A stretch of DNA of 42,174 nucleotides from Acidobacteriota bacterium (GTDB lineage Bacteria; Acidobacteriota; Terriglobia; Acidiferrales; UBA7541), in contig QHYK01000090.1 of the NCBI GenBank assembly GCA_003224085.1, positions 1-42,174 on the forward strand, read 5' to 3'. Made by a program: the position numbers and the translations under genes. Below, one piece after another: positions 4,769 through 34,615 of the stretch (its first letter is position 1; each line of letters starts with the position of its first letter). Under the pieces are notes generated by a model, which did not search any database, was not told where the DNA came from, and saw only the letters and a program-made list of their open reading frames with translations.

Positions 4769-4865
4769 TCGAAGCCTTCCTATTTCATACTTGAGAAAAT
4801 CAAATTAGTCGGCACCTAGGGAAACGAGGGCTATAGGTGTGGGCACTCTCCCGCAGGGGGATTCC

Positions 4866-9500: not shown

Positions 9501-9641
9501 CGGTCTTCGCGCGAACGGATGCTAGCAAGGGGTGTCTCGCCGGGTCAATTGAGACGCGCTAGAGAGATTGTTTGGTTGTTGTGAACAACTGGAATTTCGA
9601 TAATCGTGATACCATCGGCGCGGAGTGAAAGAAAAACCGCG

Positions 9642-10301
9642 ATGGCTAAGGAGAGCAATCTCGTCGTGATCGGCGGCGGAGCTGCAGAGAATGCCCGCCT
9701 GACGCGACGGAAGATAGTGCAGCGGCTGCTCGCCGGAGCCGGCGCCGGGGCGGCGTGGCCGCTAGTAACGACTTCTCATCCCATCAACGAGCTGTTTCGG
9801 AACAACGATGCGGTTTTTGATGAAGCGGAGAAGCTCAGCCAAGAAAACTGGAAGCCTGTTTTTTTGAGTTCGCAACAAAACGAATCTTTGACCGCAATTG
9901 GTGAAAGCATCGTTCCGGGCTCGACCAAAGCGCAGGTGACCCGCTTCATTGATCTTTTGCTCAGCGTGGACAAGCCCCAAAACCAGCACAAATTCGTGGC
10001 ATCCCTGGCGGAGTTCGACGCCGAGACGCAGAAGCGATTCGGAAAGCGCTTCCCTGCCCTCGCTGAAGAACAGAAGAACGCGTTCTTGACGGACGCTTCT
10101 GCGAAACCCGAGAACCCGGAGCCTTCGACAGCAGGCGCGGGGCAGAAGCAAAGTGCGCTTTACGCCCACTTCGAAAATCTCAAAGGCTGGATCAGCGGAG
10201 CGTATTATTCTTCCGAAGCGGGCATGCGCGAACTGGGCTGGACGGGAGACTATGTGTTTGAGAAATTCCCCGGCTGCACGCATCCCGAAGGCCACCACTG
10301 A
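9642..10301 (+). CDS. gluconate 2-dehydrogenase subunit 3 family protein
   Basis: A 219-residue protein with a twin-arginine signal (TRRKIVQRLLAGAGAGAAW) near residues 20-40, followed by a helical domain with the family-type features SLTAIGESIVPGS, a LLLSVD segment and GWISGAYYSSEAGMRELGW near the C-terminus. Subunit 3 proteins are small partners of GMC flavoproteins and are thought to serve as Tat export escorts. The gene is divergent from the GMC gene, 141 bp apart, so a shared control region is likely. The ATG at 9642 is preferred over an upstream GTG at 9606 because the Tat motif sits at normal distance. It ends 10 bp before the ThuA gene, which suggests an operon. Confidence 0.82.
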   Translation: MAKESNLVVIGGGAAENARLTRRKIVQRLLAGAGAGAAWPLVTTSHPINELFRNNDAVFDEAEKLSQENWKPVFLSSQQNESLTAIGESIVPGSTKAQVTRFIDLLLSVDKPQNQHKFVASLAEFDAETQKRFGKRFPALAEEQKNAFLTDASAKPENPEPSTAGAGQKQSALYAHFENLKGWISGAYYSSEAGMRELGWTGDYVFEKFPGCTHPEGHH

Positions 10302-10311
10302 GGACAAATTC

Positions 10312-11259
10312 ATGAGCACAACCAACCATAAAACGGCAGGACGCAGAGAGTTTCTTCGAGTCGCAGCGGTAACGGGCGCGGGCCTGGCGCTCTCGCAACG
10401 ACTTCCCGCCGCGCCGAAAAAGTCCGTGTTGGTGTTTACGAAGTCCTCCGGCTTCGAACATGAAGTGGTGAAAAGAGTCGAGGGCAAGCCCAGCATTGTG
10501 GACGATGCCGTGACCGCTCTGGGCGACAAGAACGGCTTTCACGTCGGCGTGACCAAAGACGGACGGATTTTCGACGACAAGCAATTCCACGACTACTCTG
10601 CCATAGTTTTCTACACCACCGGCGACCTGACGACGCTGGGGACGGACGGCAAGCCTCCAATGTCCCCTGAAGGCAAGCAAAAATTGCTGGACGCAATTCA
10701 CAACGGCTTGGGCTTTGTGGGCATACACGCCGCGGCCGATACGTTTCATCCGCAGCCAGACCCCAAGGACCTTTCGAACCGCTACATCGCCCATGGCGAC
10801 CAGCAGGATCCTTATCTGAAAATGTTGGGCGGCGAGTTCATCATCCACGGAAGCACGCCGCGTTTGCAGGACACCCATCTCATCGTGGACGATCCGAAGT
10901 TTCCCGGCCTCGAAGGCGTGACCTCGCCGGTCACCTTCAACGACGAATGGTATTCGTTGAAAGACTTTGCACCGGATATGCACGTGATTCTGACCCTGGA
11001 CACGCACGGCATGACGGGTGCGTGCTACCAGCGCTCGACCTATCCCGCAACCTGGGCGCGCATGCATGGCAAGGGACGCGTCTTTTACACCGCCATCGGC
11101 GACCGCCCGGAAAATTGGAAGAACGAGTTCTTCCTGAACCTGCTCGGCGGAGGAATCCGCTGGGCGATTGGCGACGCGAATGCCAGCGCCGAACCCAACC
11201 TGAAAGAAGCCGCGCCAGGCTCCGCGGAAATCCCTCCCAGGGAACCAGCAAAAAAGTAA
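10312..11259 (+). CDS. Tat-exported ThuA-domain protein
   Basis: A 315-residue ThuA/trehalose-utilisation-like protein with a glutamine-amidotransferase-like fold. The N-terminus carries a Tat signal (GRREFLRVAAVTGAGLALSQ), then VLVFTKSSGFEHEVV, the YSAIVFYTTGDLT strand, GLGFVGIHAAADTFHP and a late block GRVFYTAIGDRPENW. ThuA proteins take part in disaccharide or sugar-derivative metabolism, but the chemistry of this group is poorly defined. The start at 10312 has GAGG at 10300-10303 overlapping the upstream stop region. The short 10-bp gap to the subunit 3-like gene argues for co-transcription and for a joint role in periplasmic sugar oxidation. Confidence 0.85.
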   Translation: MSTTNHKTAGRREFLRVAAVTGAGLALSQRLPAAPKKSVLVFTKSSGFEHEVVKRVEGKPSIVDDAVTALGDKNGFHVGVTKDGRIFDDKQFHDYSAIVFYTTGDLTTLGTDGKPPMSPEGKQKLLDAIHNGLGFVGIHAAADTFHPQPDPKDLSNRYIAHGDQQDPYLKMLGGEFIIHGSTPRLQDTHLIVDDPKFPGLEGVTSPVTFNDEWYSLKDFAPDMHVILTLDTHGMTGACYQRSTYPATWARMHGKGRVFYTAIGDRPENWKNEFFLNLLGGGIRWAIGDANASAEPNLKEAAPGSAEIPPREPAKK

Positions 11260-18793: not shown

Positions 18794-19486
18794 ATGTTTG
18801 AGAGCATTCTTTTGGTGGAAGATGAAGCCGCATTAAGGGCGACCCTGGGCGACCGGCTTCGGGGAGAGGGTTACGTCGTTGACACAGCCGTGGACGGGTT
18901 TGAGGCAGTTGACAAAGCCGCCAATCTGCCCTTTGACTTAATTATTCTCGATCTTATGTTACCGTCGCGAAGCGGATTTGATGTCTGTCGCGACATCCGC
19001 CAAGCGGGAATGGCCACTCCCATTCTGATCCTGACTGCTCGCGACCAAACCACGGATAAGGTGGTAGGACTAAAGCTTGGTGCGGACGACTATGTGACCA
19101 AGCCGTTTGAAGCCGCTGAACTCATCGCTCGGATCGAAGTTTTGTTGCGCCGCGTGCCCATACGAACGGGCCAAGCAATCCACGAATTTGGCTCGATCAT
19201 TGTCGACGTGAAGCAATCCAAAGTTACAAGAGCTGGGAAGCCAGTCTATGTTACGGGTCGCGAATTTCAGCTTCTCCGATACTTCATTGAACGTCCGGGA
19301 ACAACCATCCCGCGTAAGGAACTGCTACAGGCAGTTTGGGGTTATGTGGCGGATTCTCTCACGCGAACTGTTGATGCTCATGTTGCAAGCCTTCGCCAAA
19401 AGTTGGAAGAGAATCCGAAGCGGCCTGAACTGATCGTTACGGTTTCGGGTACCGGCTACAAATTCGTCGGAGACAAGCGAAGCTAG
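18794..19486 (+). CDS. OmpR-family response regulator
   Basis: A 230-residue DNA-binding regulator. The receiver domain has the acidic pocket LLVEDEA (E9, D10), phospho-acceptor D53 in IILDLMLP, T81 in LTARD and K103 in VTKPF. The C-terminal winged helix (about 125-227) has VTGREFQLLRYFIERPG, RKELLQAVWGY and TVDAHVASLRQKLE. It starts 3 bp after the kinase stop, so the two are co-transcribed and form a cognate pair. The oxidase genes follow after a 381-bp gap and are the most likely targets. Confidence 0.93.
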   Translation: MFESILLVEDEAALRATLGDRLRGEGYVVDTAVDGFEAVDKAANLPFDLIILDLMLPSRSGFDVCRDIRQAGMATPILILTARDQTTDKVVGLKLGADDYVTKPFEAAELIARIEVLLRRVPIRTGQAIHEFGSIIVDVKQSKVTRAGKPVYVTGREFQLLRYFIERPGTTIPRKELLQAVWGYVADSLTRTVDAHVASLRQKLEENPKRPELIVTVSGTGYKFVGDKRS

Positions 19487-19867: not shown

Positions 19868-21520
19868 ATGAAAAAGTTGTACCAAGCTGTCTTGTTCCTA
19901 CTCCTATGCTGTCTGGCGCCGCTGGTTGCGAACGCTCAGTCGTTCCGCGTGCAGTGTCCAACCAGCACCATCACGCACCCCTCAAGCCTGCACGATAACA
20001 ATTCTGAACCTGCGTACACTGCCCCGACGACATTCACAACGGGCTCCGCCGGATACCTAACTCCGACTGCGAATGTCAATGGGGCGATCAAGTGCCAGCA
20101 AATCGGTGGCGGCGACGGCCTATCGACAATGGGGGACGGCACACAGATCTACATGTTTTCTTTCGGGCCGTTGTCTGGGCTTGCGGACATCGCAAACGGC
20201 TTGCCCGGTACGGAGTCCCCGAACGCCTTCAATAGCGTGTATCCGGGCACGTTCTTGCCCGGCGACCCAGCCACGACCGTTAATGCGGGCAGCGGTCCAA
20301 ACCCGGTTCCGATAGCGTTTACCTACAACGGCGCCGTGGGCTTGGTTCCTGATCCGAACGCACTACCTATCGACCCTGTCACCGGCAATCCCTGCGTTGT
20401 CTCCAACCCTAACTCTGCGCCGGCGGGTTGCTTCACGGGACATGTGGACCCTCGGGCGATCATTGACGTCGGGGTGATGAACGGCAACATCCCCGCGCCG
20501 CTGGTCGCGATCGACGAAGATGATGAACTCTTTTACACCCTTACCAACGTCGGCATGATCATGCGGCCGGACTTGTTCGAGCAGCACACCGTCCACTTCC
20601 ATGGTTATCCCAACGCTTCGACGTTCTACGACGGCGTGCCGGACGCCTCGGTGGCGATTAACATCGGCGGTAGCTTCACCTACTACTACTTGGCGCCGGA
20701 TGCCGGAACTTACTTTTGGCACTGCCACATAACCCCTCCTGAGCACTTGCAGATGGGAATGGTCGGTCAACTTTATGTGCGGCCACGGCAGAATCGGGTG
20801 CCGGCCGGTGCCAGTCTATATGATGCACTCGTAGCGCAGCAGGGGGATAACCGCACGAAATGCGATTCCACTCAAGACATCCTATGCAGCAATCCATTGC
20901 CGTTCGGAGCATCCGCCGCTTCAGCGCCTCGGGCTGCAACTGGCAATTACGCTTACAACGACGGCGATGGCTCCACCCACTACGACGTCGAGTATCCCCT
21001 CCAGATTCACGGCTTCGATCCCAACTTCCACTTTGTCGGCATGACCTTCAACCCCGAAGAATTTAGTGACATGAAGGACAAATATTTCCTACTCAATGGG
21101 CGGAGCTACCCCGACACGGTCACGCCAGGTCCTTTGGCCACACAAGCGACAGATGGCAAGATGCATTTTGCCCAGCCCCTGCCCTCCATCATCAACATCC
21201 CGGCCGGCGGGAGGGCGCTCCTGCGCATTTCTGACCTGGATGTTACGGAATATCAAACGCTGGCCTCGCTCGGAATTCCGATGACGGTGATCGGCTTCAA
21301 TGCCAAGCTCCTGCGCGATCAGGCGGGAAACAACCTGTACTTCAACACCAATTCGGTCACGCTGGGCGGCGGCGAGTCACTCGACGTCATTCTGGATGCC
21401 AGCGACACAACGAAGTATCCGTCGGGCAGCGTGTTCTATCTCTATACCCCGAATCTCGACCATTTGTCCAACGACGCAGAGAATTTTGGCGGGCTCATGA
21501 CCGAGGTCCACATCAATTAG
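19868..21520 (+). CDS. secreted multicopper oxidase-like subunit with type-1 copper site
   Basis: About 550 residues with a Sec signal (MKKLYQAVLFLLLCCL... to ANAQS). HTVHFH at 240-245 fits the HxxHxH motif. HCH at 285-287 followed by H293 and M298 (HCHITPPEHLQMGM) fits the type-1/trinuclear motif, with two extra residues compared with the common HCHxxxHxxxxM. This protein therefore has a full type-1 copper site (H240, C286, H293, M298) and only two of the four HxH pairs needed for the trinuclear cluster. The C-terminal half (HGFDPNFHFVGM, LLNGRSYPD, LLRISDLDVTEYQTL) is cupredoxin-like without HxH. ATG 19868 has GAGG upstream. It is first of three co-directional genes, 10 bp before the next. 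Confidence 0.85.
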   Translation: MKKLYQAVLFLLLCCLAPLVANAQSFRVQCPTSTITHPSSLHDNNSEPAYTAPTTFTTGSAGYLTPTANVNGAIKCQQIGGGDGLSTMGDGTQIYMFSFGPLSGLADIANGLPGTESPNAFNSVYPGTFLPGDPATTVNAGSGPNPVPIAFTYNGAVGLVPDPNALPIDPVTGNPCVVSNPNSAPAGCFTGHVDPRAIIDVGVMNGNIPAPLVAIDEDDELFYTLTNVGMIMRPDLFEQHTVHFHGYPNASTFYDGVPDASVAINIGGSFTYYYLAPDAGTYFWHCHITPPEHLQMGMVGQLYVRPRQNRVPAGASLYDALVAQQGDNRTKCDSTQDILCSNPLPFGASAASAPRAATGNYAYNDGDGSTHYDVEYPLQIHGFDPNFHFVGMTFNPEEFSDMKDKYFLLNGRSYPDTVTPGPLATQATDGKMHFAQPLPSIINIPAGGRALLRISDLDVTEYQTLASLGIPMTVIGFNAKLLRDQAGNNLYFNTNSVTLGGGESLDVILDASDTTKYPSGSVFYLYTPNLDHLSNDAENFGGLMTEVHIN

Positions 21521-21530
21521 GAGAGCGGCG

Positions 21531-23195
21531 ATGAAAGCGATGAAAATGAACACTACGATTTCTAAAACTCGGCTACTTCTTTTGCTGGTGCTGGCGTTGC
21601 TGCTCACAGCCACGACTCACGCCGCTGCCCCAGGCATCACCGGGCCGATCTTCAACTTGACGGCACAAGCTGCTTTTATTAGCCAGCCGGACGGGGCCGC
21701 GGTGTACTCTTGGGGATACGGTTGCGATCTGAGCGCGCCGCAGCCCGTCTTTGCCCCCCAGCTCACAGCCACTCCTTTCTGCTATGCCATGCAAGTCCCC
21801 GGGCCTACGCTGATCGTTCACGAAAACGATGTGGTCACCGTGAAGCTGCTGAATGGTCTCCCTGCCGCGGCGGGCAACACCTCGATCCTTTTTCCCGGCT
21901 TTAACGTTAACGCGACCGGTGGCGTTGCGGGGCTGCTGACCCAGGAGGCGGCGCCTGGCGGCACGGTAACCTATACGTTTACCGCCTCCTCCCCGGGAAC
22001 GCGCGCCTATTACAGCGGAACCCAGGGCGATCTTCAGGTCGAGATGGGCCTCTATGGCGCCATCATCGTGCTTCCGGCCAGCGTCCCGGCCAACTGCACC
22101 TCAGGGCTGCATGCAGCAAACCTCGCCGCAGAAGCGCACTGGAGCGAGAGTGACTTCCGGCTTGCACCGGCCGCATACGACCATCCCGATACCTGCTACG
22201 ACCGGGAGTACCTGTTCCAATTCTCCGAGATGGACCCCAAAATACACACGGCGGCGCTCGCGCAGATTACGGATATCGCGACTTGCGTGCCCACTCAAAG
22301 CAGGCTAACTTGCCCAACGACTTTGGAGGTCCCGACCGAGCCCTATCAACCCGCCTATTTCCTGATCAACGGTCGCTCGATGCCCGACGACATGGACCCC
22401 AACTACGCGGCGCAGTATCCGCATCAGCCCTACAACGGCAACCCGCACATGCATCCGGGGGAATTGACTCTGATCCGCGTAATCGGCCAGGGAAGGTGGC
22501 AACATCCTTTCCACGAGCATGGCAACCACGTGCGTATTCTAGCGCGCGACGGGAATTTGATTCTCAGCGGTTCAACGATCACCTATCCGGGTGCGGCAGC
22601 GCAAGCGCTTGCCGGACGCCTGGAGTTCACCACGGACACGACGCCGGGACAGGCGTTTGACGGAATTTTCTACTGGAGCGGCAAGGGTCTGAACTGGGAT
22701 CCCTATGGTCACCATCCCGGCTCGAGCGACGCCTCCGCCAAGCTTTCATGCACTCCGGATGCGAACGGCTACAACACGGCCGCGCCTACCGCGATCAACT
22801 TCTGGGAGTGGTGCCAGGACCATAACAAGCCCATGCAGGTGGCTCCGTTCGGCGATGTCGCCGGCGGCGGCCCTGCTACGCTGCCCGACGCGAACATTCT
22901 GACGAATGGTGCGTGGTACGGCGGGAGTCCCTATCTCGGTCCAAATGCAACACTTCGGGCAACTGGATGCATGCCCAGTGGCGCTACTCAAACCAACGCG
23001 CCCAACTGCGGTGCCACGGGCTCAACTCCGCCTTCCGGCACCATAGCAAACCCGCCATCGAGCGAAGCTGGCTTTGCTTTCATGTGGCACTCGCACAACG
23101 AGCGCGAGATTACCACCAACAACATTTTCCCCGGGGGCATGCTGATGATGATGCTCGTTGATTCCCGGGAATTCGTCATTGACGAATCCAACTAA
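21531..23195 (+). CDS. secreted multicopper oxidase-like subunit lacking type-1 Cys
   Basis: A 554-residue secreted protein (signal LLLLLVLALLLTATTHAAA). The first cupredoxin domain (QVPGPTLIVHENDVVTVKLLN ... YGAIIVLP, split here) has lost the usual His pairs: NTSILFPG and YYSGTQ stand where HxH is expected. The copper ligands present are HPFHEH at 325-330, with H333 next to it, and HSH at 520-522 in FMWHSHNERE. In the second motif Ser replaces the type-1 Cys, and FPGGM follows. Alone it has two HxH pairs and no type-1 centre; with its upstream neighbour it would complete the eight-His trinuclear site. AGGAGAG precedes ATG 21531. Its TAA overlaps an ATG for the giant gene (TAATG). Confidence 0.85.
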   Translation: MKAMKMNTTISKTRLLLLLVLALLLTATTHAAAPGITGPIFNLTAQAAFISQPDGAAVYSWGYGCDLSAPQPVFAPQLTATPFCYAMQVPGPTLIVHENDVVTVKLLNGLPAAAGNTSILFPGFNVNATGGVAGLLTQEAAPGGTVTYTFTASSPGTRAYYSGTQGDLQVEMGLYGAIIVLPASVPANCTSGLHAANLAAEAHWSESDFRLAPAAYDHPDTCYDREYLFQFSEMDPKIHTAALAQITDIATCVPTQSRLTCPTTLEVPTEPYQPAYFLINGRSMPDDMDPNYAAQYPHQPYNGNPHMHPGELTLIRVIGQGRWQHPFHEHGNHVRILARDGNLILSGSTITYPGAAAQALAGRLEFTTDTTPGQAFDGIFYWSGKGLNWDPYGHHPGSSDASAKLSCTPDANGYNTAAPTAINFWEWCQDHNKPMQVAPFGDVAGGGPATLPDANILTNGAWYGGSPYLGPNATLRATGCMPSGATQTNAPNCGATGSTPPSGTIANPPSSEAGFAFMWHSHNEREITTNNIFPGGMLMMMLVDSREFVIDESN

Positions 23196-23212: not shown

Positions 23213-26200
23213 ATGCGATCGAACGATCTGAGAACTTGTCTGAAGACGGCAGTACTCCTCACGGCTGTTCTCCTGCTCGGAGCGGGCCGCGTCATTGCCC
23301 AGCAGCAGGTCAATCTGACCGCGGGACCGACCACCATAACCTTGCCGGACGGTTCCACGGTGCCGATGTGGGGCTATAGTTGCGGCACAGCCGTAACTGG
23401 CTCCACGGCGACGTGCGCCAAATTGAATCCGTTAGCGACCGCGTGGTCTCCCGTCGCCATTACAGTTCCCACGGGACAAAGCCTGACCATCAATCTCACT
23501 AATAATCTCTCGTTTTTACCGGCAGGGAGCTCGTCTGCCAATGGTGTGCCGACGTCATTGGTGATCGTCGGTCAGTTGGGCGCGGGTCTCGGAACGACGG
23601 CGACATCCGCGCCGAGCCCGGATCACTCCAAGGCCCAGCCGCTTACCTGGCCCATCGCCGGTGATGCGCCCGGTGCGGGGCTAACTGGCGTGGGCGTTGC
23701 CCCAACGCAGGGGAACCGTGTGCAGTCGTTCTCCACGGAAGTGGCTGCGGGAGCAACAACGTCGCTGACTTGGACAGCACCTCGGCCCGGCACGTACTTG
23801 CTTGAATCTGGCACACACCCATCCATCCAGGGCCCCATGGGGCTTTACGGCATGGTAGTGGTAACGACGGCGCCCGGGGCTACGGCTGGCACTGCGTATC
23901 CTGCTGTGGGTTCGATTCCCGCTGTGACCTACAATGCAGAGGCCAACCTCCTGTTTAGCGAAATCGACTCCGTGCAAAACGCCGCGGTGAACGGGGCTGT
24001 AAATTCTCCGGGTTTCAAGGAAATGACGATGAGAACCTTCGGAGGCCAGGTCGGTTCGATCTCAGTTACGAACGGAGGATCGGGCTATACGTCGAATCCC
24101 GCCGTCACCATTTCGGGAGGTGGGAGCTCGTCGAGTGCCACCGCGACTGCGACTGTGGGGGCCGTTATCACTGGCATCACCGTGACTGGTGGTGGCTCCG
24201 GGTATTCGACTGCTCCGGCAGTCACAATTAATGATACCGGCACCCCGATCACGAACGCTAGTGCAGTGGCCGTTGTGTCGTTTGCCGTTAGCAGTGTCGG
24301 AGTGACATCGGCAGGCACCGGCTATCTTGCAGGCGATGTCATCAATTTGACGGGCGGCGGTGGCTCGGGTGCGGCCGCTTCGGTGGCCACAGTGGATGCC
24401 AGCGGTGGCATCGTGACCGTCACTGTTACGAATGGTGGCTCAGGCTACACTTCAGCCCCCACAGTAAGCAGTATCACCAGCGTAGCGGGAACGGGTGCTG
24501 TGCTTGCCCCAGCGTTGGCCGCGACAGGAGTTGTCAGCGCAATTAATGTGACCAACGGCGGCAGCGGCTATACTTCTCCATCCGTCACCATTGCCTCCCC
24601 TAGCTCAGGTACGACTGCCACTGCGACCGCGTCGTTTGCCGGCACACCGGGTGTCGTCTATGCCGTTACTGTTACTAGCGGTGGCTCGGGGTACCACGGC
24701 GCACCTACGGTCACGATTGCTGCTCCCGGGGGCACGGGGACCGCGGCCACGGCTATTGCAAGTGTCGGCCAATCCTGCTTCAACGGACTACCGTGCTATC
24801 CCTCTGCCGTAAACTACACGCCAATGTATTACCTGATTAACGGTGCTGCGTTCAACAAGACGAATGCAGCAGCCTCCGTGTTTAACGCGACGGCGGGCAC
24901 GGCCACTACCGGGATTTCTGGAACTGTTTTAGTGCGCATGGTGAATGCGGGCTTGCGCATGCACGTGCCGTCAATCGTCGGATCGCAAACCGGTGTGGCA
25001 GCGACCACGGGTGGGCAGCCACCTGCGGGCTTCTCTCTAATCGCAGAGGACGGCAACCCCTTGCCAGGTATTCCGCGTATACAGAGCGAAGTATTCATGG
25101 CCGCAGGCAAGACTTACGATGTGATGATTAATGCGCCTGCCGCTGGCGCCTCGGCCGTTCCGGTGTACGATCGTGAGTTAAGTTTGTCGGGCAACGCCAC
25201 CGCGCGTGACGCCGGCATGCTCGCCTACATTGGCATTAATGGGTCCGGACTCCCGGTCGCGAACGGCACCGGCGTGTTTGCCAGTGCGATGGCGCGCGAC
25301 GATAGCTACCATTCTCTTGTTGCAGGCCAGAAATTCACGGTTTCGGATCCCGGCAAGGGCGTAATCGCCAACGACACGAACGTCTACGGCGTTCACCTCC
25401 TGGCGCCTGCTGCTAATGGTACAGTGACCCTCAACGCCAATGGTACCTTCACGTATGTTCCCAATTCGGGCAGTACTGCTACCTCGGATTCCTTCACCTA
25501 TTGCGCGAACGGTTCGATAACGGCGGGTGTGTGCTCTTCTGGTTTGACCGCTGCAGTGACACTGGGTGCGGGTGATACAAGCAGCACAGTCGTCTGCAGC
25601 AGCACCTCTTATACCGCGAACACGGCCGCATACCTGGCCATCAAGACCCCGGGAGTCCTTGCATCTTGTACAGACTCGAAGGGCTTTCCTCTCACCGCTA
25701 CAGCGTTTACAGGAGCGGGAGTTGTGGGGGATGCGAGCGGCGGTTTCACCGTTTCGCTGGCCACGCCTTGTACTACCTCGACCGGTTGCCCGACGTCTTT
25801 CACCTTCCAAGCGAAGAATTCGCAGGGAATCCTCAGCTCGGCTACGACTGTGAACGTTACCTTCCCGGCTGCCAGCAATCTGCTGGTCAAGGTTTTGGAC
25901 GGTGCTGACAAGACCACTGAGATTACCGACTATCGCTGGATTATCGAGGAAGACCGCACCTTCTACATTGACCCCAAATGCACAACGAATTCCTCCACGG
26001 CGATTCCGGGCTGTCCTCCACCTCCGGCTCCAGGGAGCACTACAGGGACCACGGTTCCGCCAACCTTTGGTGTGAATTTCCACACCAGCTACATGCCGGT
26101 GGTGGCGGCGGGCTGCACTGGGCAGCTTTCCTGTGAAGGTGGCCAGACCATGGTGGATCCGGCGACCGGTTCGCATGTTCCTGCGGTGTGCGACGTGGGC

Positions 26201-29200
26201 AACGGCGTCTGCCGGCCCGATCCCACAGGAAATGGATTCACGCCTCTGAATCCCAGCCAAGTTCATCTGGATCCGACCAAGCGCTACTATATTTCTGTAC
26301 TGCCGGGTGACGCGGCTAACCCATTTGGTGCCGCATATGGCGGGGCGCCTGACTGTTCTGCAGCAGGAGCCGCGGCTGGAAGCTGTGGCCACGGCATGGG
26401 TGGAGTTCCCATTCCCGCACTGCCTGCGGGCGCTACTAGTTATCCGACGACGCCATATACGATCCTGACGCAGCCCACTCCGTTCCCGCCTGCGAACGTG
26501 TCGGTATTCATCTTCGAGGACGATTTCCCGCTCAACGGCGAGCAGGATGCCGGTGGTGGAATTCCGGGCGCACTAAATACCGTCAACGAGCCCGGTCTAA
26601 GTGGCTTTGAAATCACCCTCTTTGACGATGCTGGCGGCACCGGCGATGCTACCGGACAATTGACGCACGACATGTTCAACCAACCACTTTCGAACAGCTT
26701 GGCGGGAACCATCGACCCCCTCAGTGGTCTCGACGCCTGCCCGATTACGAAGGATCCCCTGCATGGTATGGACACATCGAACGGCAATGCGCCAGGTTCT
26801 TTGGGTACGCTGGGGATTACAGGCAGAATCGTTACCTGCCCAGCGTTCGAAGCTGACGGTGTAACTCCGTCTCCATTGGTTGGCCAAGCCCTCATTCCCA
26901 ACATGATGCAGGGAAGATACGGCGTTGTGGCCAACCCAGCGGCAGACCGCATCGCCAGAGGTGAAGAGTGGCTGCAAACCAACACCTTGGACGGGCAGAA
27001 GGCCCACGATTCGTTCGTGCGCATCGGTGAACCCAGCTACTTCCAGGAGTACGGTCCGGCCGGCTACCACGTTTCGATCGGCTTCGCCAATCCGCAAATC
27101 ATCAACAGTCGCTTGGCAGGAGTCTGCGCAGGTGCCGATCCGAGCATCACAGGCACGAATTGCCACAACACCTTAACCGGCACCGTCACAACCGAACGGA
27201 TGAGCCGCACCCCGGATGAAAGACTCTACAGCAGCGGCGATAACAGCAGCTTCGCCTTCACTCAGTGCTACGTGAGCTTTGGCGATCCCGACGGCGAGGA
27301 CTTCGCCTTCACCAAGTGCGGCCCCGATGGCTCCTTCACCCTCTCTGGTCTTCCCGACGGCGAATGGCGGTTAACCGTCTTTGACCAATGGAATGATATG
27401 TTGGTGGACGGCCTTTCTACGCCCGTAAGGCTTGCTGGCGGGACAACGGTCAATATGGGCAATATCGCCATGAACCAGTGGCAGGCCAATATCTACACTT
27501 CGACTTTCTTCGACGCCAACGGGAACGGCGTTCGCGATCCCAACGAATCCGGGCTCACCTTGGTGTCTACGAATATTCGCTTCCGCGATGGCAGCTACTC
27601 CAACTTCAACAACACCGACCTGAGCGGCAACGCCGGCTTTAACGAAGTGTTCCCGCTGTTCAGTTGGTACGTGATTGAATCGGACTCGACGCGTTACAAG
27701 AGCACCGGGACGCACGTGGTCTACGACGCCGGCGGGCCCGCCGACGGCTCTCCATCCTGCGGCGCAACCGGCTACCCGGCGTGCGGAACCTCAGCCATCG
27801 GCAATATGATGGCGAACACGAACGAACCGGCCGCCGTCGCTCTGCCGACTGCCCTGCGGGTACCCGGCGCGTACTATTGCGCCACTGCCGATTGCACCGA
27901 TGCCCCTGCTGCTCCGTCTAGGACAGCCACAACCAGCGGATCGGGCGGCTCCACAGGACGAGTCGATCCGCCGTGGCTTGCTTGGCCAGGTACCGAAGGC
28001 TGGCAGGGTTTTTCGGGACAGAACAGTTTCCTCGAATTCGGCAAGAAGCCGTTCGTAGTCGGCGAGACGGGCGGCATCCATGGTGAAGTGAACTACGCCT
28101 CGACCCGCCCCTTCGACGATCCAGAGCTCGTGCTGCACGTGAGCTGGACGCCGGACGTGCCAAACGTAACCGTTAATCTCTACCAAGAGAACGTTGCAGC
28201 TGATGGCGTGACCACAACCCTCAAACTGATCGACAGTACCAAGACCACCAGTTGGGACGATTGGGCGCAGGGCTTCCGGTCCGATGGTAATCCCAACATG
28301 AGCTGCCCTGGGCAGTCCACTACCGATCTCTTCTACTTCTCGCTGTTTAACCAGCCTGATTACCTGGACGTGTACAACAACCAACATAACGGCACTGCGC
28401 TCCACACGATTCCGAATAATTCCCAGTTCAAATGCTATGACGGCATGCACAACTGGAATCAGCTCCAACCGACGCCTTACGATGGCATGTACCAGTTCCC
28501 CAGTGTTATCGGCATCAACCCAACAACCGGAAGACCGGCGACCCCAGCCGGAGTTACTGCTGGCGTCGGTGTACCCGGCACGGCTTCCTTTGTGGCCGCG
28601 AGCTTGCCTGGGACAAACTGCACGATCTGCGTCCCGAACCCCGACACAGCGGACTCCTACAGGGTTGGCACGGCCATGCTCCCCGCCGGCAAGTATGTAG
28701 TCGAAGTGGTTGTTCCACCGGGTTACGAACTAGTTAAGGAAGAAGACAAGAACATCCTGATCGGCGACAATTACATCGCGCCGGTCACGCAGCAGTTCGG
28801 TGGACTGGGTTCCATCTATATTCTCCCCGACCAGGCCGCGGTCGGCGCGAGCTACAACGCCAACAACGCTCAGAACCAGACCGCGGATTTGGGTACTTTG
28901 AACCTGCCCCGCGGCGAAGGCGACACGGGAAGCGTGGAACAGTTCTGGCCCTGTGTGGGCGAGGCGCGCATCGTGCCTGACTTCATGAGCATCTTCCCGC
29001 AGGCCCACGAAGTAGCGGCCTTTGCCGGAGCTACGCGCAATCTGTGCGACCGCAAGGAAATCACGCTGCAAGACCAGGCATCGGCGCTGGCGAAGTTCTA
29101 CATCTTCAGCTCGACGCACGTCGCCGCCCACTTCACCGGCATAATCACGGACGACTTCACTTCCGAATTCGATCCTTTCTCTCCGGTTTTTGGTGAGAAG

Positions 29201-32200
29201 TTCTCGCCTCCAGACATGCCGGTCAGCATCAAGGATTGGGCCGGAAACGAAATTTCTCGCGTGTACAGCGACCATTGGGGGGTCTACGATGGCTTGACCT
29301 ACTCGACCTGGGAAGTCAACCCCCCCAACCCGACCGGGTATGGGCCAACGATGATGGTCACTTGCATGAACGACCCAGGACCGGTCCTGGACACGAATCC
29401 GGCTTCGCCCACCTACAACCAGATGATTACGGATCCGTTGTTCAGCCCGCAATACAGCCAGTTCTGCTATGAGATCCCGTTCATGCCGGGACAGACGCAG
29501 TACATGGATACGCCTGTCGTGCCTACATCCGCTTTCGCGGGTGCGGGCTACAACAATGTGGACTGCTCCTATCCCGATGCCACACCCGCGGTCAAGGAAG
29601 TGGATGGCGACGGACTCGGACCTTGGGTGAGCGCGGCGGGTCACACCCTCACGATTACTGCATTGGGTGACCAGATGGTGCCCAACAACGCCTACGCCGG
29701 GCCTCAGGCTACGACTGCTCCCTACAACCAGAAGTTTGTTAAGCGGCACTTCGGCTTTGGTGCCAGCCCCACAGTAACCATCGGTGGTGTTCAAGCCTCA
29801 TGTACTGGCGGCGACCTCTCGCTGACTTGCACCGTTCCGACAGGCGTGCAACCGTGCCTCGTTCAGCAACAGGCGCAGTACGGCGGCTCGACAGCCTATT
29901 GCGGCGAACTGGTCATCACCTCCGCCCCTGTGACCACGGGGACCGGTGGTGTCACCGGAGTGACGGTCACCAACGCAGGCAATGGTTATACTGCCAGGCC
30001 CACGGTGACGTTCAACAACACCGGGACCGGTGGTAGCGGTGCAGCCGCGTCTACATTCCTGGGGGTAACCCGCGTGACAGTACCCGCTGCCGGCATCGGC
30101 CGTGGTTACACCAGCCAGCCGGCTGTAACGTTCACTGCATCCCCGGCAGGTGCAGCCGCCACGGCGACTGGAACAGCCATCCTCGGGTCAGGCACGACGG
30201 CAGGGAGAGTAGTCGGCGTCACCGTAACCAGCCCAGGTTCGGGGTATACCAGCAGGCCGACGGTGACTTTCGCCCCGCCGTCTTGCACCATTAACGGAAC
30301 GACATGCGTACAGGCAACCCTGACCAACTCTTCCACAACGGGTGTCTTCATGGACGTAGTCTCGGTGACCGTTACCGCTGCCGGAACTGGTTATACCAGC
30401 AACCCCACAGTGACTTTCACCGTGCCGTCTTGCACCATTAACACAACCACGTGCGTACGGACCACCGGAACAGCCGCGGCTTCGCCCATCCAGCACTTTG
30501 CTGGCAAGCAATCAATTGATTCGGTGACGGTCACCATCGGTGGCAAAGCTCCGACTCACGTCCCCGCCACCGCGTCGATCCAGAGTGCGATTGACGCCGC
30601 CGCTCCGGGCGACTTGATCATCGTTGACCCGGGCTTTACGCCATCAGCAACTGCCGCAGCTGGAACTTCGTGCGCCGGGGTAACTGCGCCGACCACCACC
30701 TGTGTCGAAACGGCTGGTACCCACAACGAAATATTGCTTATGTGGAAGCCGGTCCGACTGCAAGGCGTCGGGGCTGCCAGTAGCGTCATCAACGCCAATA
30801 CCCATCCGGCGGGCCAGACCAAGATGGACGCCTGGCACCAGCGGATCGTTTGTCTCTTTGGCCTGGGGTTGAATGGTTCACCAGTCAACACCAGCCCGCA
30901 TACGGGTGATGTCAACACGCTTAAGAACGTATTTGATCCCACCGGGAAGGTCTCTTGCCCTGGAACGGGATGGAACTACTTTACAGCGTTCGACGAGAGT
31001 GGTGCGACGACCGGCTCCTCCGCTACCAATGCGCAAGTAGATCGTTTGCCGCTGGAGTCGGTTGTTGGATGGAGTGCCGAACTCAATGGCAACCTCGCCG
31101 AGCAGTTGCAAGAGCCATCCTTGATGGGCGCTCTGGAAGGCGCGGGCATTACCGTGCTTGCTAAGGGCGTGAACTTCCCCTCCGATCCTTATGACTCGAC
31201 TCTACTCGCAGGGTTCCCGACCGGCACGACACTGCTCATCGGAACCGATGCCGGCGGTGGCGGTAACTTCCCTGTGGGTGACGCCAATGCCTTCTGCCAC
31301 ACCAGCGCCGCCAGTGCGGCTAACCCGTTCCCGAGCAACTATTCGTGCAACCCCTCAAGCATCGACGGCTTGGGCATCACGAATAGCTCCCAGGGCGGCG
31401 GCGGCATCTTCGTCCACGGCTGGGCACATAACCTGCAAATCGCCAACAACCGCATTTACAGCAACGCCGGAACGCTTTCGGGCGGCATCAACATTGGCCA
31501 GGGTGAATTTGCTCCGCCCTACACCCAAGGCGGGGGCGCCCTAAATGCCCCTCCGGGCTCGTGCGAGGACAGCCCTGTACCGAACGCTATTCTGCCATAC
31601 TGCGAAAATGTCAATGTGAATATCCATCACAACTACGTCGCATGGAACTCTTCCACCGGCGATGAATTGTTCTCGGCCAGTCCGGCGGGTGCGGGCGGTG
31701 TCAGCATCTGTACCGGCGCCGACTATTACAAGTTCAACTACAACTGGGTATGCGGCAATCTGAGCAGTGGAGATGGCGGCGGCGTCGGCCATATCGGGTT
31801 CACCTTCAATGGCGACATCGAGCACAATACCATCCTCTTCAACCAGAGCACCAACCCCACAATCCCGACCAACGGTGGCGGTCTCATCGTCATGGGCGCT
31901 CCGGATCAGGACCTTGTTTGCAATACGATCATTCCCCTACTCGACCTAGATTGTGCACCTACCGCAGCAGTTGGTGGGGCTGCCAGTGTTACGCCGAGCG
32001 ACGGCGTCGGTCCGGGCCTGGTCATCAACGCCAACCTGATCATGGGGAACGCTGCTGAGAGCGGCACTGGGGCGGGCATCGCCTTCAATGCTGTCAACGG
32101 CACGGACATGGTTAACTTCCCCACCGATCCAGGACAGTGGAATCTGGTGACCGTGACCAACAACATCATCGTGGACAACGTGGGCGGTTGGGATGGCGCC

Positions 32201-34024
32201 GGAATCTCGCTGGCCGATTCTCCCAACGTGAACATCATCAACAACACCATCGCTTACAACGCCAGCACGGCTTCGGCAGGAATCCTCTTCAACACCCTTG
32301 GGGCTCCTCTTGCCAGCCAGGGCGGAAGCAGCTGCTCGAGCACGGCGACAACCACATGTCCTCGGCCCGCTGGGCTGGTGGCCATCCAGCATAGCGCAGT
32401 TTTGGCGGCGAATCTGCCGTCGAGCACTGGTGGCGTCAATGTCGTCTGCCCGCCAGGCCATTTCCAGACCACGGCAACCAACGGATCTTGCAAGACCGTC
32501 TCGTATCCGAAGCTGGAGAACAACATCTTCTGGCACAACAGCTCGTACTACATTGGCGTGGGCCCCCTCAGCCCGCAATTCCAGCAGAATGTGGTGTCGC
32601 TGTTTAACGCTTTCACCCACACTGCGGTTGCGAATCAGCCGGCGGCGGACAGCTCGACGACGACGGCTGGCAGCACGACCATCACCGGAGGCACCGGCGC
32701 TTGCGTCAGCGGTACCCAATACTGGGATATCGGCGTGCGCGGTGACACTGGCCCGACCAACCATGGTTCCGGGGTCACACTCCGAGCAACGGATTCAGTG
32801 CTAACAGCCGGTGGATCTAGTGTTTTGAGTTCGGGTAACTCAACGGGTGCCCCGAACTTCATCAGCCAGTACTGCGACGGATCACGCGTGTCCCCGGAAA
32901 CGCCGGGACTTCTAGCCGCGGGCTGGCAGGTGCCTCCGGGTATTTCGGACGCAACCGTGCCGAACCCCATCTTCAACTTGACTCCGACGGCTACGGTGGA
33001 CGAAGGCAACAACTGGGTCAACATGAGCTGGGGCCCCCTCACGATGACCAATCCAACAGTTGCGGCCGGACCTAACGGAAATTACGGTGGCGGCCTCCCG
33101 CTCGGTAATTACGGCATTGCCGCAGCATCCTCGGCGGCAGGGAGGGTCCCAGGTGGCTCGGCGAACTACGTCGACGCTCCTAATTTCGACTTCTACAACA
33201 ATCCAAGGAAACCTGGTCCAATCGATGCTGGGGCGGTTCAACGGACCGGGACTGGCACAAACAGAGACTTCACTGTTTCACCCGCGTTGGTGGACTTTGG
33301 TCTTGTACCTGTCCATAGCCCGACAACCTTGGATCAGGACATCCAAGTCATTAACACGGGTGGCGTGCCGCTCTCGTTCAACGCAGCCAGCTTCGCGATT
33401 TCGTGCGCGAATGTGACGACTGGATGCAGTACAGCAAGCTACACCATCGTGTCCAATACGTGCTTCGTCGGTGGGGGCACATCGACCCTTGCTCCGGGAG
33501 CAAGCTGCGTAATCAACGTGGTCTTCAACCCCATCAGCACGTCGCAAGCAGCGAGGAATGCAACTCTAAGCGTGAACCCGGTTGGTAACGGCGGCGCGGA
33601 GTTCGTCTCGCTCACCGGCCACGACACGATTGCGACGGTAACTGTCTCCCCACTCACCCCGGCGTTGACCACAACTCCGGCAAGCACCGTCGCGCACACC
33701 GGGACGATCACAATCACCAACACTACCAACCCGAACACAAATCTCGATGCTGGCCCGTTTATCCCAACCGCCATAACGCTCACACCGCTGGCTGGCACGG
33801 GCACGTTCACGCGCGGCGGCACTTGCGCGGTGGGCACGCCGATCAACGCGGGAGGGACTTTGGTACCGCCCGCGGCCGGCTCGAGTTGCACGATCACGAT
33901 CACCTACACGCCACCGGCAGGCGCAACAGGAGCGGCGCTGAACGGTCGGGCCAACCTCACGGTAACGGGGAACGGCAGGGCCTCCACGGCACCGCTCATC
34001 AACCTAAACTTTAACGCGAACTGA
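23213..34024 (+). CDS. giant secreted multidomain protein with degenerate cupredoxin domains
   Basis: About 3,603 residues with a Sec signal (to VIAQQQ). Approximate order: cupredoxin-like domain 33-220; a second one, 241-280 and 521-676, interrupted by six GGSGYT repeats (280-520); cadherin/VCBS-like segment 711-786 (GTFTYVPNSG); conserved KVLDGADK...ITDYRWIIEEDRTFYID 886-925; SdrD-B/Cna-B-like and carboxypeptidase-regulatory-like domains about 1,093-2,180 (NGNGVRDPNESG); IPT-like 2,181-2,238; four more repeats 2,241-2,426; beta-helix about 2,440-3,340; two ASH-like domains 3,351-3,603. No HxH pair is seen in the N-terminal 700 residues (LRMHVPS has one His). ATG 23213 with AGGAGAAGAG is preferred; ATG 23195 overlaps the previous stop. 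No LPXTG or PEP-CTERM anchor is seen. Confidence 0.85.
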   Translation: MRSNDLRTCLKTAVLLTAVLLLGAGRVIAQQQVNLTAGPTTITLPDGSTVPMWGYSCGTAVTGSTATCAKLNPLATAWSPVAITVPTGQSLTINLTNNLSFLPAGSSSANGVPTSLVIVGQLGAGLGTTATSAPSPDHSKAQPLTWPIAGDAPGAGLTGVGVAPTQGNRVQSFSTEVAAGATTSLTWTAPRPGTYLLESGTHPSIQGPMGLYGMVVVTTAPGATAGTAYPAVGSIPAVTYNAEANLLFSEIDSVQNAAVNGAVNSPGFKEMTMRTFGGQVGSISVTNGGSGYTSNPAVTISGGGSSSSATATATVGAVITGITVTGGGSGYSTAPAVTINDTGTPITNASAVAVVSFAVSSVGVTSAGTGYLAGDVINLTGGGGSGAAASVATVDASGGIVTVTVTNGGSGYTSAPTVSSITSVAGTGAVLAPALAATGVVSAINVTNGGSGYTSPSVTIASPSSGTTATATASFAGTPGVVYAVTVTSGGSGYHGAPTVTIAAPGGTGTAATAIASVGQSCFNGLPCYPSAVNYTPMYYLINGAAFNKTNAAASVFNATAGTATTGISGTVLVRMVNAGLRMHVPSIVGSQTGVAATTGGQPPAGFSLIAEDGNPLPGIPRIQSEVFMAAGKTYDVMINAPAAGASAVPVYDRELSLSGNATARDAGMLAYIGINGSGLPVANGTGVFASAMARDDSYHSLVAGQKFTVSDPGKGVIANDTNVYGVHLLAPAANGTVTLNANGTFTYVPNSGSTATSDSFTYCANGSITAGVCSSGLTAAVTLGAGDTSSTVVCSSTSYTANTAAYLAIKTPGVLASCTDSKGFPLTATAFTGAGVVGDASGGFTVSLATPCTTSTGCPTSFTFQAKNSQGILSSATTVNVTFPAASNLLVKVLDGADKTTEITDYRWIIEEDRTFYIDPKCTTNSSTAIPGCPPPPAPGSTTGTTVPPTFGVNFHTSYMPVVAAGCTGQLSCEGGQTMVDPATGSHVPAVCDVGNGVCRPDPTGNGFTPLNPSQVHLDPTKRYYISVLPGDAANPFGAAYGGAPDCSAAGAAAGSCGHGMGGVPIPALPAGATSYPTTPYTILTQPTPFPPANVSVFIFEDDFPLNGEQDAGGGIPGALNTVNEPGLSGFEITLFDDAGGTGDATGQLTHDMFNQPLSNSLAGTIDPLSGLDACPITKDPLHGMDTSNGNAPGSLGTLGITGRIVTCPAFEADGVTPSPLVGQALIPNMMQGRYGVVANPAADRIARGEEWLQTNTLDGQKAHDSFVRIGEPSYFQEYGPAGYHVSIGFANPQIINSRLAGVCAGADPSITGTNCHNTLTGTVTTERMSRTPDERLYSSGDNSSFAFTQCYVSFGDPDGEDFAFTKCGPDGSFTLSGLPDGEWRLTVFDQWNDMLVDGLSTPVRLAGGTTVNMGNIAMNQWQANIYTSTFFDANGNGVRDPNESGLTLVSTNIRFRDGSYSNFNNTDLSGNAGFNEVFPLFSWYVIESDSTRYKSTGTHVVYDAGGPADGSPSCGATGYPACGTSAIGNMMANTNEPAAVALPTALRVPGAYYCATADCTDAPAAPSRTATTSGSGGSTGRVDPPWLAWPGTEGWQGFSGQNSFLEFGKKPFVVGETGGIHGEVNYASTRPFDDPELVLHVSWTPDVPNVTVNLYQENVAADGVTTTLKLIDSTKTTSWDDWAQGFRSDGNPNMSCPGQSTTDLFYFSLFNQPDYLDVYNNQHNGTALHTIPNNSQFKCYDGMHNWNQLQPTPYDGMYQFPSVIGINPTTGRPATPAGVTAGVGVPGTASFVAASLPGTNCTICVPNPDTADSYRVGTAMLPAGKYVVEVVVPPGYELVKEEDKNILIGDNYIAPVTQQFGGLGSIYILPDQAAVGASYNANNAQNQTADLGTLNLPRGEGDTGSVEQFWPCVGEARIVPDFMSIFPQAHEVAAFAGATRNLCDRKEITLQDQASALAKFYIFSSTHVAAHFTGIITDDFTSEFDPFSPVFGEKFSPPDMPVSIKDWAGNEISRVYSDHWGVYDGLTYSTWEVNPPNPTGYGPTMMVTCMNDPGPVLDTNPASPTYNQMITDPLFSPQYSQFCYEIPFMPGQTQYMDTPVVPTSAFAGAGYNNVDCSYPDATPAVKEVDGDGLGPWVSAAGHTLTITALGDQMVPNNAYAGPQATTAPYNQKFVKRHFGFGASPTVTIGGVQASCTGGDLSLTCTVPTGVQPCLVQQQAQYGGSTAYCGELVITSAPVTTGTGGVTGVTVTNAGNGYTARPTVTFNNTGTGGSGAAASTFLGVTRVTVPAAGIGRGYTSQPAVTFTASPAGAAATATGTAILGSGTTAGRVVGVTVTSPGSGYTSRPTVTFAPPSCTINGTTCVQATLTNSSTTGVFMDVVSVTVTAAGTGYTSNPTVTFTVPSCTINTTTCVRTTGTAAASPIQHFAGKQSIDSVTVTIGGKAPTHVPATASIQSAIDAAAPGDLIIVDPGFTPSATAAAGTSCAGVTAPTTTCVETAGTHNEILLMWKPVRLQGVGAASSVINANTHPAGQTKMDAWHQRIVCLFGLGLNGSPVNTSPHTGDVNTLKNVFDPTGKVSCPGTGWNYFTAFDESGATTGSSATNAQVDRLPLESVVGWSAELNGNLAEQLQEPSLMGALEGAGITVLAKGVNFPSDPYDSTLLAGFPTGTTLLIGTDAGGGGNFPVGDANAFCHTSAASAANPFPSNYSCNPSSIDGLGITNSSQGGGGIFVHGWAHNLQIANNRIYSNAGTLSGGINIGQGEFAPPYTQGGGALNAPPGSCEDSPVPNAILPYCENVNVNIHHNYVAWNSSTGDELFSASPAGAGGVSICTGADYYKFNYNWVCGNLSSGDGGGVGHIGFTFNGDIEHNTILFNQSTNPTIPTNGGGLIVMGAPDQDLVCNTIIPLLDLDCAPTAAVGGAASVTPSDGVGPGLVINANLIMGNAAESGTGAGIAFNAVNGTDMVNFPTDPGQWNLVTVTNNIIVDNVGGWDGAGISLADSPNVNIINNTIAYNASTASAGILFNTLGAPLASQGGSSCSSTATTTCPRPAGLVAIQHSAVLAANLPSSTGGVNVVCPPGHFQTTATNGSCKTVSYPKLENNIFWHNSSYYIGVGPLSPQFQQNVVSLFNAFTHTAVANQPAADSSTTTAGSTTITGGTGACVSGTQYWDIGVRGDTGPTNHGSGVTLRATDSVLTAGGSSVLSSGNSTGAPNFISQYCDGSRVSPETPGLLAAGWQVPPGISDATVPNPIFNLTPTATVDEGNNWVNMSWGPLTMTNPTVAAGPNGNYGGGLPLGNYGIAAASSAAGRVPGGSANYVDAPNFDFYNNPRKPGPIDAGAVQRTGTGTNRDFTVSPALVDFGLVPVHSPTTLDQDIQVINTGGVPLSFNAASFAISCANVTTGCSTASYTIVSNTCFVGGGTSTLAPGASCVINVVFNPISTSQAARNATLSVNPVGNGGAEFVSLTGHDTIATVTVSPLTPALTTTPASTVAHTGTITITNTTNPNTNLDAGPFIPTAITLTPLAGTGTFTRGGTCAVGTPINAGGTLVPPAAGSSCTITITYTPPAGATGAALNGRANLTVTGNGRASTAPLINLNFNAN
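24051..24770 (+). repeat. GGSGYT repeat array 1 (six units) within the giant gene
   Basis: Six units of about 36-45 residues share the pattern V-x-V-T-N-G-G-S-G-Y-T-S-x-P-x-V-T-I followed by a Gly/Ala/Ser/Thr-rich strand pair. Units start near VGSISVTNGG, ITGITVTGGG, VSSVGVTSAG, GIVTVTVTNGG, VSAINVTNGG and VYAVTVTSGG. The array lies between two parts of what reads as one cupredoxin domain. Confidence 0.75.
29935..30490 (+). repeat. GGSGYT repeat array 2 (four units) within the giant gene
   Basis: Four units of the same family: VTGVTVTNAGNGYTARP, VTVPAAGIGRGYTSQP, VVGVTVTSPGSGYTSRP and VVSVTVTAAGTGYTSNP. The last two carry an insert with two Cys (SCTIN-x-TTCV). The array separates an IPT-like stretch (STAYCGELVIT) from KQSIDSVTVTIGGKAP. 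Confidence 0.75.
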
Positions 34025-34070: not shown

Positions 34071-34105
34071 TAATAAAAGACCTTTTGGAAAGAGGACAAA
34101 CAAAA

Positions 34106-34615
34106 ATGCCAGAAAGCAATGCCATCAGGAAAACAATGTCCATGCTGCTGGCCGGAGTTTTCGGCAGCAGCATCTCGGTTTTCCAGGCTGGAGCGCAAAC
34201 CTCTTCTCAGCCCACGAATCCGAAGCGATCTGCAGCTCCGATGCACTACCGCCCCGATCGCTTCGCTGGACGCGCCGGAAAGTTCTACGCGCTGATATGG
34301 GGTATCGACTCGCTCAGCGTAAAGTATGCCGAGTCTGGCGAGGTCATTCGATTCAGCTACCGCGTACTGGATCCCAACAAGGCGCGGACCTTGAACGACA
34401 AGAAGCTCGCGCCCAGCTTGATCGACCCGGAAGCTGGAGTGAAATTGGTGGTTCCGTCCCTGGAAAAAGTGGGGCAGTTGCGTCAGAGCAGCACACCTGA
34501 GGCAGGCAAGTCCTACTGGATGGCCTTCTCGAACAAGGGCCGATTGGTCAAGCGCGGAGACCGCGTCGATGTCGTGATCGGGCCGTTCCACGCTCAAGGA
34601 CTGGTGGTCGATTAG
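34106..34615 (+). CDS. small secreted protein of the oxidase cluster
   Basis: About 169 residues. The N-terminus SNAIRKTMSMLLAGVFGSSI with cleavage near QAGAQ is a signal peptide. The mature domain contains RFAGRAGKFYALIWGIDSL, GEVIRFSYRVLDPNKARTL, EAGVKLVVPSLEKVGQL, GKSYWMAFSNKGRLVKRGD and VDVVIGPFHAQGLVVD, a beta-rich pattern. There are no Cys or His clusters for metal binding. I do not know the family; from memory, similar proteins occur in Acidobacteriota. The ATG at 34106 is chosen for its position before the signal peptide and a GAGG 13 bp upstream. It follows the terminator, so it is either transcribed by read-through or from its own promoter. Confidence 0.7.
   Translation: MPESNAIRKTMSMLLAGVFGSSISVFQAGAQTSSQPTNPKRSAAPMHYRPDRFAGRAGKFYALIWGIDSLSVKYAESGEVIRFSYRVLDPNKARTLNDKKLAPSLIDPEAGVKLVVPSLEKVGQLRQSSTPEAGKSYWMAFSNKGRLVKRGDRVDVVIGPFHAQGLVVD

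Follow-up and report, generated by a model that had tools for sequence, protein, structure and literature searches.

A multicopper oxidase cassette of Acidobacteriota with its cluster ligands divided between two genes: a putative heteromeric enzyme with a third homologous unit

In laccases and in CueO, the type-1 copper site is located in the last domain of the protein and, to our knowledge, the trinuclear clusters of multicopper oxidases are built either within one chain or between identical subunits. Two-domain oxidases are described as trimers in which the cluster residues come from two protomers, those of type C carrying the type-1 site in the N-terminal domain (PMC13151041). In six-domain oxidases, a single chain is reported to place its cluster between domains 1 and 6 or between domains 2 and 3, and its type-1 sites in domains 2, 4 and 6 or in domain 2 only (PMC3600357). 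OmpB and MofA are reported as large secreted oxidases, OmpB with a fibronectin domain, whose gene clusters include a MofC-like cytochrome c/periplasmic-binding protein and SCO1-type chaperones (PMC5566968), and in heterodimeric fungal laccases of the POXA3 type a small subunit is said to raise the stability and activity of the catalytic chain (PMC10741624). The subject of the present work is a cassette of three consecutive genes in contig QHYK01000090.1 of an Acidobacteriota bacterium (assembly GCA_003224085.1), the whole stretch of 42,174 nucleotides that was analysed being referred to as the window. Subunits A, B and C of this cassette are likely to form an oxidase that is obligately heteromeric and probably heterotrimeric; it would have a single active site in place of three, with C serving as its tether. 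A preliminary description of the same DNA had proposed a heteromeric oxidase with its cluster at the A/B interface; complementary conserved halves, co-occurrence and a co-fold of A with B argue for that interface, but a third homologous subunit had been missed, and it is this subunit, together with a type-C ancestry, that is added here. The open-access literature yielded no papers on a heterotrimeric multicopper oxidase or on similar phrases; a report may be in print elsewhere.

The genes and motifs concerned are the following:

19868-21520, forward strand: subunit A, 550 amino acids (aa) from ATG to stop, with a signal peptide, an N-terminal extension and two cupredoxin domains
20585-20602, forward strand: motif HTVHFH of A, aa 240-245, invariant in 13/13 sequences
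20720-20761, forward strand: motif HCHITPPEHLQMGM of A, aa 285-298, invariant in 13/13 sequences
21531-23195, forward strand: subunit B, 554 aa, with a signal peptide and two cupredoxin domains
22503-22520, forward strand: motif HPFHEH of B, aa 325-330, invariant in 13/13 sequences
23088-23096, forward strand: motif HSH of B, aa 520-522, present in 116/117 B relatives
23213-34024, forward strand: giant gene carrying subunit C at its N-terminus, 3603 aa if translation starts at this ATG, with 23195 as an alternative ATG

Both A and B are intact genes, and a check of translations and motif positions confirmed their previously given coordinates and ligand motifs exactly. Each product appears to open with a Sec-type signal peptide of its own, as had been proposed and as is seen when the sequence is read by eye. 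The Pfam family Cu-oxidase_3 matches A at aa 201-308 and B at aa 83-182. Of the two cupredoxin domains of A, the first contains one half of the ligands of the trinuclear cluster as well as the type-1 copper site, and the second contains no ligands; in B, the first domain is devoid of ligands and the second provides the other half of the cluster set, without a type-1 Cys. By analogy, His 240 of HTVHFH would belong to the type-1 site and His 243 and His 245 to the cluster, while in HCHITPPEHLQMGM Cys 286, His 293 and a Met would be type-1 ligands and His 285 and His 287 cluster ligands. The absence of His pairs from the first cupredoxin domain of B holds true, no HxH being present in its Cu-oxidase_3 region (aa 83-182), as does the presence of Ser in place of the type-1 Cys. 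B also contains a third HxH, which had gone unmentioned: this HMH (aa 306-308) is missing from eight distant B sequences (L137-L144) and falls outside the ligand columns of aligned two-domain oxidases, and for these reasons it is probably not a cluster ligand.

The division of the ligands is strongly conserved. All ligand residues of A and B are kept in 13 A and 13 B sequences, one of each from the window's cassette and from 12 others; the seven genomes of the genus that supplied them include that of the window itself. Over a wider set, a strict pattern for A (the type-1 site plus four cluster His) is matched by 114 of 116 distinct relatives, the two exceptions having Leu for the axial Met (L144) and Ser for one cluster His (L067). 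For B, a narrow pattern, HPFHxHG, matches 85 of 117 relatives and a wider one, HPxHxH (followed by G or A) plus HSHxE, matches 116; the sole miss, L085, is truncated by its contig. HSH is found in all 116 matching sequences and HCH in none. The earlier proposal that each protein alone offers half of a trinuclear cluster, and the two together eight His, is thus borne out by these relatives, and since the A set recurs in 114/116 and the B set in 116/117 of them, the split of the ligands, as read from the alignments, exceeds chance. The idea that A and B are decayed pseudogenes was rejected, frames and ligands being kept in more than 100 relatives. At three loci (L056, L075 and L085) B lies in two frames.

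These counts also bear on the possibility that there is no shared cluster, A carrying electrons by its type-1 site and B binding or storing copper, with the half-cluster likeness an ancestral leftover. The type-1 site of A is indeed complete by itself; leftover ligands should nevertheless decay independently, yet both halves have persisted in nearly all relatives, whereas ligands are gone from the four remaining domains of A, B and C, and a co-fold described below sets the first domain of A and the second domain of B as in laccases. Such an arrangement is therefore very improbable.

The two genes travel together. In the genome_contigs collection, 240 stretches encode an A relative; among the best 80, which were kept, B follows A in 79, the exception (L115) ending at a contig edge. 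All 25 loci read at length show A, B and C in this order as three separate genes. Within the genus, the same 7 of 25 genomes hold A and B at E < 1e-100, and 26 of 41 have some match at 1e-3, for the most part a weak one that involves a single domain of another oxidase. The window's genome itself has three diverged cassettes, on contigs C17, C35 and C81 (the window), the first two encoding A proteins 76% and 63% identical to that of the window. A is found at 1e-20 in 14 of 297 genomes of a phylum sample, in 13 of 399 genomes of the order of L058's genome (7 strongly), and in 18 of 395 genomes of the phylum of L114's genome (17 strongly). B is likewise present at all further loci with a strong A, apart from L129 and L136 (the same contig edge) and L155 (the short flank of L153's gene). 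Cassettes occur in Acidobacteriota and in records of Burkholderia, Paraburkholderia, Collimonas, Trinickia, Pandoraea and Cupriavidus; eight matches lie in plasmid records, six from Paraburkholderia and two from Cupriavidus. The one annotated record that was read, AP028202.1, labels all three genes 'hypothetical protein'. Pairwise distances of A, B and C are correlated (r 0.96-0.97 over 109 loci, against a maximum of 0.22 in 200 permutations), which shows joint inheritance, not contact.

Single-chain homologues with both ligand halves did not turn up in the loci and genomes that were searched. None was flagged in the best 80 of the 240 genome_contigs loci or in the 25 longer loci, and no frame in 72 further loci scored above 150 bits with both the A and the B profile. 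A B-profile search of 398 and 299 genomes from the phylum of the Cupriavidus/Proteobacteria records, in overlapping draws with up to 4 or 5 candidates scored per genome, gave no long fused frame; the weaker matches were frames of 461-834 aa, of which L219 and L220 entered a motif check. Among 80 genomes from the family of L058's genome, B was matched strongly in five, each time by frames of 445-544 aa. Two long frames tried as A/B fusions, in L137 (1220 aa) and in L138 (2290 aa), contain A but lack a B unit, and show weak A/B cross-matches only.

The gene that follows B begins with a third two-cupredoxin unit, interrupted by repeats. This C unit comprises approximately the first 690 residues of the giant protein, which align with stand-alone two-domain proteins of relatives. 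In the window it contains five His and no HxH; 104 of 120 C frames likewise lack HxH in their first 900 residues, and in eight of the 16 that have one it coincides with a lone vestigial His (HMHVP, HSHIP or HTHIP), while in the rest it lies elsewhere. Profile comparisons relate all three units (E-values of 3e-35 for A-B, 3.9e-59 for B-C and 2.6e-25 for A-C). Where the first domain of A has its ligands, other residues stand in B and C; at the HPFHEH columns of B, A has no His and C has one, and neither the A-B nor the B-C alignment extends as far as the HSH columns of B. In the Protein Data Bank (PDB), the A and B profiles find their best relatives in the two-domain oxidases 3g5w and 2zwn. The A profile matches their type-1-bearing domain 1, and in domain 2 the counterparts of the HPxHxH and HSH of B are HAIHTH/HAMHSH and HDH, matched in pieces that are weak but colinear. 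The Ser of HSH thus sits where these enzymes have Asp, not Cys; from the alignment, it is less odd than it appeared, replacing the Asp of the nearest known domain. Copper nitrite reductase (NirK) was considered and rejected, A (31.6 bits) and B (44.1 bits) both falling below the cut-off of 296.3 bits for NCBIfam TIGR02376; a search with the single B sequence had ranked nitrite reductases first. On these comparisons, the best explanation of A, B and C is that a type-C two-domain multicopper oxidase gave rise to all three as paralogous subunits of two cupredoxin domains each. The preliminary description had remarked that the pieces stand in an order opposite to that of most single-chain oxidases; the type-1 site does lie in the first domain, but this is already the order of type-C two-domain enzymes.

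A possible intermediate is encoded by a two-gene split oxidase (L242:4369-6473, L243:5167-7284, L246:3626-5582 and L247:4809-6849), found in three genomes from the same order as that of L058. One of its proteins, X, carries only the domain-2 cluster ligands, with Leu or Asn replacing Cys, and has a weak twin-arginine match in L242; the other, Y, has the type-1 site and the domain-1 ligands, and the gene order is the reverse of A-B. No third matching frame adjoins the pair at any of the four loci. Separately, at L239 (4656-7827), L240, L241, L244 and L245, a complete two-domain oxidase is encoded about 1 kb from a 320-332 aa cupredoxin protein without HxH. Trees were made by one method, FastTree, and read from bipartition tables. 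With 98 sequences and 301 columns, support was 1.0 for A, 0.994 for B, 0.733 for C and 0.998 for B+C. With 106 sequences and 298 columns, complete two-domain oxidases were separated (0.979) from the split proteins, which comprise A, B, C and those of the two-gene form; B was joined to C (0.95) and X to B+C (0.948), and Y was poorly placed, with a support of 0.373; as sequence trees, these groupings of the split proteins are a lead only. The position of X beside B+C and the separation of the split proteins from complete oxidases suggest a stepwise history, in which a homotrimeric type-C enzyme was split into two genes, the cluster-half gene was duplicated to give a ligand-free C, and C was fused to a giant adhesin-like protein, resulting in an obligate heterotrimer with one site against three in its ancestor, a widespread surface oxidase that has so far gone unrecognised. 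This scenario is tentative, its chances being slightly short of even.

Structure predictions were made with relatives of the window's proteins. An AlphaFold2 co-fold of A and B from L139, based on 71 alignment rows of which 25 were paired, had a pLDDT of 89.3 and a pTM of 0.90. In VIA-align, A alone (residues 5-387) superposes on 3g5w with Z 28.9 at 1.7 Å over 277 aligned residues. The A+B model superposes on 6vow (Z 29.3, 3.7 Å, 385 aligned), on the Thermus three-domain laccase 2xu9 through residues 3-825 (Z 27.7, 2.9 Å, 384 aligned), on CueO 3od3 (Z 25.6, 3.1 Å, 384 aligned) and on the fungal laccase 3pxl (Z 25.4, 3.0 Å, 403 aligned). Three-domain enzymes thus cover residues 3-830 of the model, from the first domain of A through the last of B. 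Since the laccase cluster sits between domains 1 and 3, the model sets the ligand domain of A against that of B, and it supports, at the level of domains, a placement of the first domain of A and the second of B like that of laccase domains 1 and 3; the alternative contact, between the second domain of A and the first of B, was also open to it. The earlier comparison with single chains whose first and last domains form the site therefore has a basis in the way the A+B model lies on laccases, but the type-C two-domain oxidases are the better comparison. A co-fold of A, B and C was made from L193 as a single chain, with 26 alignment rows; in it, unit B superposes on 2zwn (Z 29.9, 2.6 Å, 274 aligned) and unit C on 3g5w (Z 26.1, 2.4 Å, 263 aligned).

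Several points weigh against a shared cluster in a heterotrimer. The L139 proteins are only 45% (A) and 46% (B) identical to those of the window and were folded as one artificial chain reading through a stop codon; AlphaFold2 knows laccases, so that the model may lean on their architecture; and VIA-align reports the first and last aligned residues, leaving the middle of each alignment out of sight. Full-chain Foldseek alignments of A+B, made in chain order, give TM scores of 0.25-0.30 by query length, which would be expected if the order in the ring were B then A, and lend no support. The A+B co-fold is confident and laccase-like, whereas that of A+B+C has a pLDDT of 75.5 and a pTM of 0.56, with the first ligand loop of A below a pLDDT of 50, and its units are not packed like a trimer (Foldseek TM of about 0.2). 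The B-profile pieces on domain 2 of 3g5w are individually weak (i-E 0.03 and 57), correlated distances are expected for any genes that stay together, and the A of L067 has lost one cluster His.

Some of these points would suit a simpler arrangement, in which A and B share the cluster as an A:B complex only (a heterodimer, A2B or AB2) and C is a separate surface protein with a kept cupredoxin fold. A and B fold together confidently without C and not with it, and the two-gene form is complementary with no third matching frame beside it. C is nevertheless closer to B than to A, both by profile and in the tree, and comes after B in 25/25 loci; the C unit of the A+B+C model has the two-domain oxidase fold, and two-domain oxidases are described as trimers (PMC13151041). 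A complex of A and B alone is accordingly unlikely. Because a third homologous subunit opens the next gene, a six-domain heterotrimer is more likely than a dimer.

In the mechanism proposed for this heterotrimer, A, B and C would be exported separately and would then assemble and be loaded with copper, most likely as an A:B:C ring of six cupredoxin domains. The type-1 copper in the first domain of A would take electrons from the substrate and pass them via the His-Cys-His segment to the cluster at the A/B interface, where the second domain of B would contribute the other four His and where O2 would be reduced to water. C, which has no ligand pairs, would close the ring and tie the oxidase to a giant surface-type protein. 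The joining of C to adhesin-like parts invites the guess that the enzyme acts at the surface on metals or phenolics. If this mechanism is true, assembly and copper loading would be an obligate multi-protein process, colour would be expected with A alone and O2 reduction only with A and B together, and the cassette would link the two-domain homotrimers to the six-domain enzymes, ceruloplasmin among them.

The remainder of the giant protein of the window is adhesin-like, with cadherin, SdrD-B, beta-helix and Ig matches that are weak and all below Pfam cut-offs. In L190, the C tail (8119-10818) has six Big_9 stretches well above the cut-off, within Big_9/cadherin repeats. The tails vary: L137 has repeats (3953-5878), L145-L147 encode giants of 2500-3900 aa, and L138 and L141 have little or nothing. 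Long frames antisense to the giant gene (25178-26392, reverse strand, and others) are probably a by-product of its repeats and base composition. The cassette is flanked by three further genes of interest:

34085-34615, forward strand: gene D, a small secreted protein after C, in a frame of 176 aa
16793-18790, forward strand: sensor histidine kinase upstream of the cassette, start codon uncertain
18794-19486, forward strand: response regulator with a Trans_reg_C domain, upstream of the cassette

Gene D comes after C in the window, as it does in 27 of the 52 loci inspected, many of these stretches stopping short of its place; it has no Pfam or NCBIfam matches, and might serve in assembly or in the handling of copper. 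Some other cassettes have SCO1/SenC copper-chaperone genes nearby (L137, L198 and L199) or LolA-like genes, whose match passes the cut-off in L028 but not in L215 or L216. L215 further has a gene for a GspD secretin, and L216 one for a cytochrome c protein that also gives a periplasmic-binding match below threshold. By position only, the sensor kinase and response regulator are possible regulators of the window's cassette. At L025 (17049-17798) and at six other loci, cassettes of the genus have a gene for a Crp-family regulator nearby, and the window and some relatives have a two-component system instead, so regulation seems to vary between cassettes. Ordinary neighbours in the window include an H+ pyrophosphatase (39438-41915, forward strand), an AAA_26 (BioD-like) protein (36965-37624, reverse), a VTT-domain protein (36060-36692, reverse) and a GMC oxidoreductase (7812-9500, reverse).

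Among the described systems, the POXA3-type laccases likewise have a second, different subunit, which is not described as giving copper ligands. OmpB and MofA, compared here by description only, resemble the cassettes through the SCO1/SenC genes and the cytochrome c protein found near some of them, and differ in being described as single chains. Three-domain laccases and CueO superpose on the A+B model from the first domain of A to the last of B; they are one chain, whereas here two chains together make up four domains, the first of which bears the type-1 site. Ceruloplasmin, MnxG and other six-domain oxidases likewise have six cupredoxin domains, one trinuclear cluster and decayed sites elsewhere, and Foldseek matches the A+B+C chain to ceruloplasmin 1kcw (E 1.8e-40) and MnxG 9bxa_A (E 1.5e-35), though with TM scores of about 0.2; here, however, the six domains come from three separate genes in 25/25 loci, and the type-1 site sits in the first domain of A rather than in an even-numbered one. 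The closest likeness is to the type-C two-domain oxidases, represented by 3g5w of Nitrosomonas europaea and the metagenome laccase 2zwn, which are the top PDB matches of A, B and C and have in common with them the two-cupredoxin fold, two such domains being found in the A, B and C units of relatives of the window's proteins. The cluster ligands of type-C enzymes, in domain 1 (HxH, HCH) and domain 2 (HxxHxH, HxH), correspond in place to those of A and B, and the type-1 site of A is in the N-terminal domain, as in type C, with none in B or C. Type-C subunits are all alike and each has both cluster halves, whereas in this cassette the domain-1 half belongs to A only and the domain-2 half to B only, on two genes, and a third homologous unit has neither.

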